Notes under the pieces: generated by a model | Databases searched by the model: none | Told to the model about the DNA's origin: nothing | The model's input: the letters and a program-made list of their open reading frames with translations, nothing else | NCBI GenBank assembly: GCA_017514665.1 | Contig: JAFWIX010000001.1 | Location: 1-64,000, forward strand | DNA length: 64,000 nucleotides | Direction of reading: 5' to 3' | Origin: Candidatus Saccharimonadota bacterium | Lineage (GTDB): Bacteria; Patescibacteriota; Saccharimonadia; Saccharimonadales; Saccharimonadaceae | Position numbers and translations under genes: made by a program | Part shown: positions 22,382 through 25,663 of the stretch, in pieces | Layout of the letters: every line of letters begins with the position of its first letter | Numbering within the stretch: position 1 is the first letter of the stretch

Positions 22382-22410
22382 TTGACAATTTTTACTAAGT
22401 ATGATATAAT
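22382..22410 (+). promoter_or_regulatory. Perfect consensus promoter of paralog 1
   Basis: TTGACA (22382-22387) and TATAAT (22405-22410) are 17 nt apart and the -10 is preceded by AAGTATGA, identical to the promoter of paralog 2. Confidence 0.88.
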
Positions 22411-22416
22411 AAAAAA

Positions 22417-22570
22417 GCTAGACTCGGGTAGGCGTCTATGTACATTACTATCGTTTTTGGAATGCCGTAGCAAAGCTGCCTAGCAGCGCAAGATGCAAGA
22501 TTCAAATCGTACATCCTGCGCTGCTAAGCAGTAATCAGTTATTTTTTAGTAAAAAGAAGGGGGACAAACA
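22417..22570 (+). ncRNA. Structured 5' leader of paralog 1
   Basis: A ~150-nt leader. It holds ATCGTTTTTGG (22450-22460), complementary to a segment just after the gene, and a hairpin TAGCAGCGCA/TGCGCTGCTA with an inner GATG/CATC extension. The segment CATTAC before and GCAGTAAT after could close the structure. The leader of paralog 2 has the same layout with compensatory changes. It ends in a strong AGAAGGGGGAC ribosome binding site. Confidence 0.7.
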
Positions 22571-23215
22571 ATGTTTGTAATTAATTATCAAGAGGTCGTA
22601 CCACCACTTAAACGCGACCGTATTAAAATTTCGACCCAAGAAGAGCTTGTCTTTCTTGGAATCGAAAACCTGCTATGGATCCAGTCAGAATGGAGAATCT
22701 GGCAAGACGTCGAGACTAAAAAGCTCGACGGACTCAATAAAAAGCTCGAAGAGCTTGAGGAAACGCCAGAGCTTTCCAGCGAAGGATTAAAAAAGATGCT
22801 CAGCGAAAACACTAAACGCGAAGTGGCAGAACAGCAAAAAAAGATTGATAGGATTGAAGTAATTATCGATCTTATCACAGACGCTACAGTTCTCGCCGAG
22901 AACAAACCGATTCTGCCATGTGCGCGAAAGCGAGGCCACTTCATCAGAGACGAATATCTGGTTGTTTTCGACGACGGCAAGTTCCTCAATGCTGAAGTCG
23001 TAAGCGAGGAGATGCCGGCAAAAGATCGGCCATTAATCGTCTTCATAAGAGATGGTCGGGCTCGAGCATACAACGATATCAGCCCAACAATAATGAAACG
23101 CTCTGAGTTCGAATACTTAGAGCACCATCCGGAGTACACAAAAATCTGGATAAAAAGCGCCGGGTGGTTCCCAGAAGAGATGCTGGAGGCATTCGCTGAG
23201 AGATATCCCGACTAA
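22571..23215 (+). CDS. Unknown protein, paralog 1 of tandem pair
   Basis: A 214-residue soluble protein with no recognised domain. The N-terminal third contains QEELVFLGIENLLW, followed by a charged, probably coiled-coil stretch (residues ~55-100). A conserved C-terminal half shared with the gene at 23533 includes KPILPCARKRGHFIRDE, then DGKFLNAE, RPLIVFI and HPEYTKIWIKSAG. No signal peptide or membrane segment. It is transcribed from an rRNA-grade promoter with a structured leader and its own terminator, so it is probably abundant. Function unknown. Confidence 0.75.
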   Translation: MFVINYQEVVPPLKRDRIKISTQEELVFLGIENLLWIQSEWRIWQDVETKKLDGLNKKLEELEETPELSSEGLKKMLSENTKREVAEQQKKIDRIEVIIDLITDATVLAENKPILPCARKRGHFIRDEYLVVFDDGKFLNAEVVSEEMPAKDRPLIVFIRDGRARAYNDISPTIMKRSEFEYLEHHPEYTKIWIKSAGWFPEEMLEAFAERYPD

Positions 23216-23216
23216 T

Positions 23217-23260
23217 CCAAAAACGATAATACCCTCTGCAACACCGTAGGGGGTATTTTC
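23217..23260 (+). terminator. 3' UTR segment and intrinsic terminator of paralog 1
   Basis: CCAAAAACGATA (23217-23228), complementary to the leader, is followed by the stem ATACCCTCT/AGGGGGTAT (23229-23256) with loop GCAACACCGT and a U-tract. The loop is identical in paralog 2 while the stem covaries. Confidence 0.88.
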
Positions 23261-23332
23261 ATGCCCTTTTATATATTTAATGCACCTACACGCAGAATAT
23301 CAAGAAGCGGCAAAGTTACTAACCGGGCATAT

Positions 23333-23361
23333 TTGACAGCCACAAACAAGTATGATATAAT
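23333..23361 (+). promoter_or_regulatory. Perfect consensus promoter of paralog 2
   Basis: TTGACA (23333-23338) and TATAAT (23356-23361) are 17 nt apart, with the shared AAGTATGA before the -10. Confidence 0.88.
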
Positions 23362-23367
23362 ATAAAA

Positions 23368-23532
23368 CACGAGTGCCCCTGGTACTTGTGGAACATTACA
23401 ATCGTTTTTGGGTATCACAGCAAGATGCTTAGCAGCGTAGGGTGTAAGAACAAAATCATACATCGTACATCGTACGCTGCTAAGCAGTAATCTGTTATTT
23501 TCTAAAGCACATATGGAAGGGGGAAATCACAT
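23368..23532 (+). ncRNA. Structured 5' leader of paralog 2
   Basis: The 165-nt leader contains ATCGTTTTTGG (23401-23411) and a perfect 13-bp hairpin GCTTAGCAGCGTA/TACGCTGCTAAGC, followed by GCAGTAAT and a GGAAGGGGGAAA ribosome binding site. The stem differs from that of paralog 1 at paired positions (GCGTA/TACGC versus GCGCA/TGCGC). Confidence 0.7.
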
Positions 23533-24129
23533 ATGTCATTCAACTACAAAAAAGTAATACCGAATCGTTACCGGTACTTACTGAAAGTGCTCGATCTTTC
23601 CAGCCAGGAAGATCTAATCTGGCTTGGATGGGATAATCTCACCCTTTACAAGGAGTACTGGGAAAAAGAGCTCGAAGAGGAGAGAAAAGAGCTGAAAAAG
23701 AGGCAAGAGGTAGGGCTCTCGACAAAAGTAGAGGAAGAATGGATTGACGAATTCGTCGAAATCGTAGACATTCTTACCTCTTCTATCAAAGAAGCGGTAA
23801 ACAAGCCACTCTTCCCATGCGAGAGAGAAAACGACCATTTTGCTAGAGACGAAGGATTCTTCATCTTTCTAGATGGCGAATTCCGAAACGCCGAAGCGGT
23901 GGCACCACCAATACCATCCAGAAAACGGCCAATGATCGTTTATGTTGCAGAGTGCAGAAAGGCTATTCTTTGCAACATCAAAGATCCAACTCTAATGAAA
24001 TACACGGAATGGAAGTATCTGAAGACGCATCCAGACTATACAGAAGTGTGGTTGAAAAGCGCCGGATACGACGGGACTGAGACCGAAAAGGCTATGACGG
24101 AAGCTTTCCGCTCATGGTACTCATGGTAA
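23533..24129 (+). CDS. Unknown protein, paralog 2 of tandem pair
   Basis: A 198-residue homologue of the protein at 22571. Shared features are the N-terminal QEDLIWLGWDNL, a Glu/Lys-rich helix, and the C-terminal blocks KPLFPCERENDHFARDE, DGEFRNAE, RPMIVYV and HPDYTEVWLKSAG. Divergence is substantial (roughly a third to half identity by eye), so the duplication is not recent, yet promoter, leader and terminator architecture are preserved. Function unknown. Confidence 0.75.
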   Translation: MSFNYKKVIPNRYRYLLKVLDLSSQEDLIWLGWDNLTLYKEYWEKELEEERKELKKRQEVGLSTKVEEEWIDEFVEIVDILTSSIKEAVNKPLFPCERENDHFARDEGFFIFLDGEFRNAEAVAPPIPSRKRPMIVYVAECRKAILCNIKDPTLMKYTEWKYLKTHPDYTEVWLKSAGYDGTETEKAMTEAFRSWYSW

Positions 24130-24130
24130 T

Positions 24131-24175
24131 CCAAAAACGATTAATGCCCCCTGCAACACCGTAGGGGGCATTTTT
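24131..24175 (+). terminator. 3' UTR segment and intrinsic terminator of paralog 2
   Basis: CCAAAAACGATT (24131-24142) is complementary to the leader. The stem ATGCCCCCT/AGGGGGCAT follows with loop GCAACACCGT and TTTTT. Confidence 0.9.
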
Positions 24176-24220: not shown

Positions 24221-25663
24221 ATGGTAGCACCTAACCAGCCACCACCATCGACAGAAACTTCAAACGATATGCAAACTAACGAGTGGGAGAGCGTAGCAGC
24301 ATTAGCCGATAATAAGATGCCCACTAACGAAAAACAAGAAAAGGAGTCCACGGTGGAAAAAGAGCCAATAAACACAGAGCCTTATTTTGGTGAAACATAC
24401 AAAGCCTATATGGTCAATGTTTTTCGACTATATGAAAACATAGAACAAAGCGATATGTCAGAAGAAGAAAAAGAAACCGCGTTTAATTCCGAATTAGCTG
24501 ATTATCTCATTAGTGATAGAGAAAAAATGAATACTTTGTTAAAAACACAAACAGAAGATCAGAGATTAATTGATTTGGCTCCTACAGAATTTCACAGAGG
24601 GGCGGAATCACTAAATTTTGCATCCGTGAAAAATCTATACGATACTTTTATAAATGACGTAAATGTAGTCAATGATGACTATGAAGGCAACATGTACATC
24701 ACCGTCCCAAAAGGACAAAAGATTTTTGATGAACAAATATTGAGTGATGATGACGAAATACAAATCAACCCAGAAATTAAATACGATTTTTCTATGTTAA
24801 AAGATATCTATGATTTTGCCAAAGAGCACGACAAACAAATTAAATTTCATGTTTTCTTATGGCATGATGCAATTCCGGATAATCTAAAAGCAGAAGTAGA
24901 TAATGTAACCGATCCTTCGTTAAAACGAAGAATGATTCTAAGTTTCTTAGATGATTATGCTTCGAATCTCGCCAAATTTATTAAAGAGAATGGGTATGAT
25001 TTGAGACAATTGGAGGCACTAAACGAAATCGCATTCAACGATGGCCCAGAAAAAACTACCCTAAGAGATTCTTGGTGGAAAAATGTTATTGGAGAAAACC
25101 CAGAAAACGGCGACCCTTATTACATTGATGTGTTAAAAATCGTAAAAAAGAATTTTCCGAACACAGAGATAATCTACAATGAATATAATGAGTTTATCGA
25201 TTGTAAAACCGATAGAATAGTAAATATCCTCGAAGAAGTAAAGCGCATCGAGGAGAGGGATGGCATAAAAATACTAGACGGTATTGGACTGCAAGCTCAT
25301 TATTCAGATTTCATAAAAGGCCCTGATGTTCCCTTGACTGAATGGGATATTAAGAAGTCTGCAGCAAAATTAGAACATGCTTGCAGAGGCAAGAAAATTT
25401 ACATCACCGAGTATGATTTTATAGATACCATGAAAGACGGAAGTAAAGAACAATTAGAAAAAGCCTTCGTCGAAATTTATAGCAAAATAGCAAATGGATT
25501 CATTACGTGGGGCAACAGCGATGCTCTAACCTGGTATCATTGCATTGATAAAGAAGGCAACTCCATGGACGCTCAGATTATTGATTCTGACGGCAAACCA
25601 AAAGCAATATACCAAAAAATTAAAGAAGCTTTCTATCTTAGTAAACAGCGAGACGATAAATAA
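24221..25663 (+). CDS. GH10 endo-1,4-beta-xylanase-like protein without signal peptide
   Basis: A 480-residue protein whose residues ~150-470 match the GH10 TIM barrel. Recognisable blocks are KFHVFLWHDAIPD (family HTLVWHSQ-like), LEALNEIAFND with the acid/base Glu, IYNEYN, DGIGLQAHYS, KIYITEYDF with the nucleophile Glu, and a late WGNSDALTWY. Both catalytic glutamates are present. The N-terminal ~60 residues are Pro/Asn/Glu-rich and disordered, with no secretion signal. AT-rich composition differs from neighbouring housekeeping genes. TATAAT (24194-24199) and AGAAGGAG precede ATG. Confidence 0.78.
   Translation: MVAPNQPPPSTETSNDMQTNEWESVAALADNKMPTNEKQEKESTVEKEPINTEPYFGETYKAYMVNVFRLYENIEQSDMSEEEKETAFNSELADYLISDREKMNTLLKTQTEDQRLIDLAPTEFHRGAESLNFASVKNLYDTFINDVNVVNDDYEGNMYITVPKGQKIFDEQILSDDDEIQINPEIKYDFSMLKDIYDFAKEHDKQIKFHVFLWHDAIPDNLKAEVDNVTDPSLKRRMILSFLDDYASNLAKFIKENGYDLRQLEALNEIAFNDGPEKTTLRDSWWKNVIGENPENGDPYYIDVLKIVKKNFPNTEIIYNEYNEFIDCKTDRIVNILEEVKRIEERDGIKILDGIGLQAHYSDFIKGPDVPLTEWDIKKSAAKLEHACRGKKIYITEYDFIDTMKDGSKEQLEKAFVEIYSKIANGFITWGNSDALTWYHCIDKEGNSMDAQIIDSDGKPKAIYQKIKEAFYLSKQRDDK

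Follow-up and report, generated by a model that had tools for sequence, protein, structure and literature searches.

Paralogous genes of a Saccharimonadota bacterium whose mRNA ends are complementary, covary among homologues and probably pair

Introduction

An interaction between the 5' and 3' UTRs of the hbs mRNA was reportedly described by Braun et al. in 2017. A review that leaves the generality of the phenomenon open gives RNAIII, icaR and hbs as three bacterial mRNAs whose two ends pair (PMC7821165), and in its account the 14-nt 5'/3' interaction of the B. subtilis hbs mRNA protects the message from RNase Y. The 5'/3' pairing of S. aureus RNAIII, an RNA with a short coding region, has been probed (PMC7821165). 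The icaR mRNA of S. aureus pairs its 5' UTR with its 3' UTR inside one molecule; through a UCCCC anti-Shine-Dalgarno motif, its ~390-nt 3' UTR inhibits translation, and S. epidermidis is without it (PMC3868564). The icaR pairing is not conserved even between staphylococci. Long-distance end pairing with phylogenetic support is also found in the structured mRNAs of the hok/Sok and AapA1/IsoA1 systems (PMC6733600).

Here we describe two genes, A and B, in a 64,000-nucleotide stretch of DNA (the window) from a Saccharimonadota bacterium. They fit the mRNAs with 5'-UTR/3'-UTR pairing in having better-than-chance complementary segments, with compensatory change in homologues, although not in all branches. 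By analogy, the hbs mRNA as the review presents it would be the closest precedent for closure of these messages: in each case the leader of a single mRNA matches its 3' UTR over a similar length (14 nt in hbs, 9–15 here), and the review's passages on hbs do not describe masking of the Shine-Dalgarno sequence (PMC7821165). That account concerns one gene and its protection from RNase Y; here, the arms covary across a gene family, and the leader has a further conserved hairpin. Unlike these units, RNAIII is a dual-function regulatory RNA, and its 5'-3' helix is 7 bp. In contrast to icaR, the 3' UTR is short, most members have the arm away from the Shine-Dalgarno sequence, and compensatory changes preserve the pairing. 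The hok/Sok and AapA1/IsoA1 messages differ in encoding small toxic peptides, in their antisense RNA and in their masked Shine-Dalgarno sequence (PMC6733600); the proteins here have 200–350 aa. End pairing is already known in single genes, and what is new is a covarying family with a helix off the ribosome-binding site. A search of the literature on RNA motifs and UTRs of Saccharibacteria and candidate phyla, which left most subscription journals outside and is weak evidence of novelty, did not turn up the element.

Results

Two paralogous transcription units with complementary ends

The source genome has 670,673 bases and is 95.65% complete. Genes A and B are paralogues, each in a unit that begins with a promoter and a ~160-nt leader, which holds the first arm and a long hairpin, and continues with the Shine-Dalgarno sequence, the open reading frame, a second arm and a terminator. 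Their features in the window are as follows.

22382..22410, +, promoter of A (TTGACA-17-TATAAT, 12/12 consensus positions; TG before the -10)
22417..22441, +, 5'-terminal hairpin of mRNA A (weak, z -1.0; stronger in most homologues)
22449..22461, +, leader arm of A, TATCGTTTTTGGA, complementary to the tail arm of A
22476..22531, +, second leader hairpin of A (CTGCCTAGCAGC...GCTGCTAAGCAG)
22555..22563, +, Shine-Dalgarno sequence of A, outside the pairing arm
22571..23215, +, gene A (214 aa, uncharacterised family)
23216..23228, +, tail arm of A, TCCAAAAACGATA, directly 3' of the stop codon, partner of 22449–22461
23229..23258, +, intrinsic terminator of A
23333..23361, +, promoter of B (TTGACA-17-TATAAT, 12/12 consensus positions)
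23370..23392, +, 5'-terminal hairpin of mRNA B (z -4.1)
23400..23412, +, leader arm of B, AATCGTTTTTGGG, complementary to the tail arm of B
23425..23487, +, second leader hairpin of B
23515..23523, +, Shine-Dalgarno sequence of B
23533..24129, +, gene B (198 aa, paralogue of A)
24130..24142, +, tail arm of B, TCCAAAAACGATT, directly 3' of the stop codon, partner of 23400–23412 with one G-U at the end
24143..24172, +, intrinsic terminator of B

An earlier sequence-only reading of this DNA had drawn attention to most of this layout. Both promoters proved as perfect as it had claimed, matching the consensus at 12/12 positions, and the hairpins it described are present in both leaders. For both genes we verified the arms and coordinates of the match that it reported between the leader and the sequence right after the stop codon. 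Its identical terminator loop stood in part: the loop sequence is common to A and B, and part of the quoted GCAACACCGT belongs to the terminator stem. The arms of A and B have a common core of 11 nt. Across all 670,673 bases of the genome, CCAAAAACGAT or its complement occurs five times; four of these occurrences are the arms of A and B, and the fifth lies on another contig, without leader or tail context. The gene adjoining B (24221–25663 of the window) codes for a protein with a glycosyl hydrolase family 10 domain (Pfam, E 3.4e-28), in what is a very small genome; it has no clear link to the two units.

The end complementarity exceeds chance

For both A and B, the leader/tail pairing reached p ~0.0005 against shuffled tails, the smallest value that the shuffle allows. 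Only transcribed sequence was counted as leader, the tail ran no further than the start of the terminator, and helices were sought with a scanner that allows one mismatch; RNAduplex with long loops was uninformative. In a similar control on 56 genes of the window, run with fixed upstream and downstream stretches, 7 genes fell at p<0.05 and only A and B at p<0.01. These tests confirm that the complementarity of the A and B ends is beyond chance and that the observation is real.

The same signal was seen across the family. Nineteen independent arm sets, which include weak and negative members of a branch with its own promoters, gave a Fisher combined P of ~2e-11, although some single members reached only p=0.05–0.12. 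When tails were swapped among members, none of 100,000 permutations matched the sum for the own pairs (-283 vs -205, sd 10). The arms had been located by seeking pairing, a bias that the shuffles and permutations correct, but not fully, and promoters and tail ends were placed by hand.

Both arms change together in homologues

When relatives were searched at the protein level, three distant copies came to light in the genus, and two of these have the same leader and tail. Scanning 174 genomes of the genus for a sequence pattern gave one more copy with leader and tail, and a leader covariance model brought in further, more divergent copies. One match to the leader model in another genus (L036) was a tRNA region and was rejected. 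The arms of the close relatives G005, G044, G157 and G159 differ little from those of A and B, with one extra A in the tail of G157 and one G-U in the helix of G159; the arm sequence is almost invariant in this A-like branch, and the leader/tail pair ATCGTTTTTGG/CCAAAAACGAT is common to A, B, G005 and G044. The twelfth pair, previously put forward as a covarying pair that is kept, is T-A in A and A-T in B, G005 and G157, but an unpaired T-T in the close homologues G044 and G159, so that this position alone is not a conserved pair. The more distant homologues, not the twelfth pair, give the good evidence of covariation. Leader/tail pairs in which both arms have changed together include the following.

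G044, second copy: AATCGTTTTGA/TCAAAACGATT
G040: GCGCTTTTG/CAAAAGCGC
G040, second copy: CAATTTGGCATATGA/TCATATGCTGAATTG
G024: AATTCGTTATA/TATAGCGAATT
G211: AATCGTCTT/AAGACGATT
G050: CTTTCTGGAAAA/TTTTCTGGAAAG
G212: TTAATAGTTGAT/ATCAACTATTAG
G199: AAGAATGGGTT/AACCCATTCTT
a further distant copy: ATCGTTTGAAGTA/TACTTTAGGCGAT
G375, another genus: TAATTCGTCT/AGGCGAATTA (10 bp with one G-U, p=0.055)
G562, a third genus: AGAAGCATTA/TAATGCTTCT (10 bp, p=0.004)

The pairs of G375 and G562 were met after the hypothesis had been set. Paired arms flanking homologues in related genomes, for which the earlier reading had suggested looking, were thus found with compensated changes in much of the set, but some branches are without arms. 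The leader/tail pairing of G581 (p=0.17) and G556 was below significance, the p value of G579, whose leader had been cut at 1,417 nt, was left out, and no significant arm pairing was found in G123, G144, G195, G179, G124 and G053, in tandem copies linked to typA or in most copies from genus g48. Because of these members and branches, arm pairing is not universal in the protein family; it therefore marks a part of the family or has been lost repeatedly. Loose DNA pattern scans of genome contigs and of viral contigs listed at least 213 loci; those listed were chance matches, none with the protein family and none with the hairpin together with the tail.

These copies also bear on whether pairing would occur within one molecule. 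Cross-pairing of the A leader with the B tail, the reverse, or dimers is possible given the shared 11-nt core, and the icaR mRNA dimerises in vitro (PMC3868564). However, genomes in which a single copy was detected retain arm pairing too, and the arms differ between the two copies of G044 and between the two copies of G040, as expected if each copy pairs with its own tail. We consider pairing in trans, in place of closure of a single molecule, highly improbable.

G-U pairs and flanking hairpins point to RNA

Several diverged leader/tail helices are lengthened by G-U pairs. A raw tally inside the chosen arms gave 15 G-U against 0 A-C pairs, but this count is biased; we set it aside because the arms had been chosen with G-U allowed, and used a symmetric mirror control in which the longest helix allowing G-U pairs and the longest allowing A-C pairs were each tested against one set of shuffles. 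Significance with G-U and not with A-C was reached by G105, G024, the second G040 copy and G159. G375 leaned towards G-U, and G050, an exception, was low with both.

This control helps to separate RNA pairing from two readings at the DNA level. If the arms were paired DNA sites bound by a protein, perhaps the gene's own product, that coevolves with an operator at both gene ends, they would also change together, and the near invariance of the arms in the A-like branch is what a protein site would show. Yet all arm-bearing members have the arms in inverted orientation, which DNA looping does not need (the search itself sought complementarity); the helices of G105, G024, G375, the second G040 copy and G159 beat chance, or nearly so, with G-U and not A-C, G050 excepted; and the sites are themselves transcribed and adjoin structured RNA. 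We regard such protein sites as very unlikely. The sequence-only reading had also offered a mobile or cassette-like unit with 12-bp inverted ends, and a mobile or invertible cassette bounded by the arms as terminal inverted repeats would suit a family that is patchy (26 of 174 genomes) and whose copies lie at unrelated places, beside an SDR gene, metK, lepA and typA. That proposal was not supported. The promoter and terminator lie outside the arms, are conserved and move with the unit; the arms differ among members, and imperfect ones are extended by G-U; and the orientation with respect to promoter and terminator is identical in every copy. No relative turned up on the viral contigs searched with single proteins or on the plasmids and phages searched by tblastn. 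We find a cassette scarcely credible. RNA pairing is favoured over DNA inverted repeats or a mobile cassette because of the G-U extension and the location of the arms inside the promoter–terminator unit.

The second leader hairpin was 95.2% paired over 12 stem pairs in 14 sequences. Consistent with the leader-stem covariation claimed earlier, four pairs have changed on both sides and none of 500 shuffles reached its covariation score, in a hand-made alignment, which leans towards structure. Most leaders also fold into a hairpin at their very 5' terminus (22 members, mean z -1.6). No Rfam family reached its gathering score; the palindromic hairpin drew miRNA and sRNA matches below threshold only. 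When whole transcripts were folded, closure of the ends was highly probable for 7 of 12 members and poor, down to near zero, for the others. From their sequences, the 5' hairpin, arm, second hairpin, ribosome-binding site, gene, arm and terminator appear to form an RNA architecture.

The arms lie away from the ribosome-binding site

In most of 12 members, the predicted accessibility of the Shine-Dalgarno sequence was nearly equal with and without the tail, and removing the tail left it unchanged in A (0.42/0.42) and B (0.83/0.85). Direct masking is disfavoured for this reason, and the models make masking of the kind seen in icaR or AapA/hok unlikely for A and B. We likewise rejected an icaR-type anti-Shine-Dalgarno 3' UTR for A and B, whose arms lie ~110 nt or more before the start codon and whose Shine-Dalgarno accessibility is the same without the tail. 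The products of A and B do not fit a type I toxin mRNA either: at 214 and 198 aa, they are charged and are not small hydrophobic toxins. G199, in which the arm touches the ribosome-binding site, could work by direct masking.

A less direct control of translation has also to be weighed. The end helix could refold the leader, so that the full-length mRNA is poorly translated until its 3' end is trimmed, or the leader arm could first pair beside the Shine-Dalgarno sequence and later be released by the tail, as in hok, AapA1 and icaR. The long-distance topology is the same as in hok/AapA1 (PMC6733600) and icaR (PMC3868564); the arm of G199 abuts the Shine-Dalgarno sequence, with predicted accessibility dropping from 0.33 to 0.17 when the tail is present; and a CCAAAA(A)G stretch just 5' of the Shine-Dalgarno sequence in G005, G044 and G040 (L008, L009, L025) could compete with the tail for the arm, making a possible switch. 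However, A, B and G157 have no such stretch, and the A and B leader arms end ~110–120 nt 5' of the start codon, where the tail leaves predicted accessibility as it is. Nor is there a small hydrophobic toxin or a strong antisense promoter; antisense promoter-like sites at A and B are only 9-of-12 matches, in numbers near chance. We judge a translation gate of this sort unlikely.

The protein family is uncharacterised

With protein profiles, the family was detected in three other genera of the same taxonomic family, g48, g62 and g42 (the last a short match), besides 26 of the 174 genomes of the genus. Members have in common an N-terminal motif, IP...dLxFLGxxNLxxlxxyW, a middle segment, A..KP...F..gD, and a C-terminal segment, YLxxhPxYxxxW, with a Cys-rich insertion in the longer ones; A and B have a charged, helical N-terminal half. 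The strong divergence of the two proteins noted in the sequence-only reading is borne out by their 35% identity. This uncharacterised family diverges fast.

That reading had proposed profile searches and structure prediction for both proteins. There was no match above cut-off to the A/B family in Pfam, NCBIfam, PHROGs, PADLOC or PDB sequences. AlphaFold2 with a two-sequence alignment gave pLDDT 59.7 and 56.0, with poor models outside an N-terminal helical hairpin, and a PDB fold search with these models had no match below E 0.18. A modelled resemblance to DksA/Gfh1-type coiled coils is only a lead. In a conserved-block search with the protein alignment, conserved stretches were too few.

The family gene of G024 (L028:1616-2303) looks broken, its frame split into two overlapping ORFs, and the copy in G159 (L024:1620-2075) looks truncated, with its ends missing; the arms of both are still paired. 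In G213 (L027:1500-2023) the same second leader hairpin precedes a 134-aa ORF that matched neither the protein family nor Pfam and had no significant leader/tail pairing; a long G run near its start could be a slippage tract. Tandem family copies without leader or arms lie 3' of a typA-like GTPase gene in several species (L052, L053, L056, L057, L065), and several of their tails have a GCGCT...AGCGCC hairpin. A SAM riboswitch (RF00162; L016:7263-7359) precedes metK, with the G157 copy of the unit lying just downstream.

Discussion

The idea of an mRNA whose ends pair, one of two offered by the earlier reading, is supported by arms that change together across homologues and use G-U where they are imperfect. 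On this sequence evidence, end pairing at the RNA level is very probably real and selected. A and B would each be transcribed alone into an mRNA that closes on itself, the arm close to its 5' end pairing with the one between the stop codon and the terminator, and this pairing would be under selection at the RNA level across the protein family within this bacterial family. We infer that it occurs in cis and in cells and affects message stability.

The leader arm would pair only after RNA polymerase has reached the terminator, so that the closing helix would mark full-length transcripts. Together with the 5'-terminal, second leader and terminator hairpins, the closed form may shield the message from nuclease at the leader, and closure would couple survival of the message to its completeness, as reported for hbs mRNA. 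Because the helix does not mask the ribosome-binding site, stabilisation of the full-length mRNA by end closure is our best guess. By analogy with hbs, this stability role is about as plausible as its opposite, and we hold the combined reading, a selected end-pairing mRNA whose closure stabilises the full-length message, to be rather probable. A bolder idea takes the protein and its own end-paired message as a unit: a fast-evolving protein of ultra-small bacteria, with a class of closed-ring mRNAs, in which the protein (a helical hairpin and a small beta-rich domain) would bind its own 5' hairpins or the closing helix, for example in autoregulation or in an RNA particle. We consider this quite doubtful.

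The compensatory upkeep of pairing across species and genera suggests that closure of the message is itself selected. The family offers natural variants for testing end pairing that does not simply cover the ribosome-binding site.
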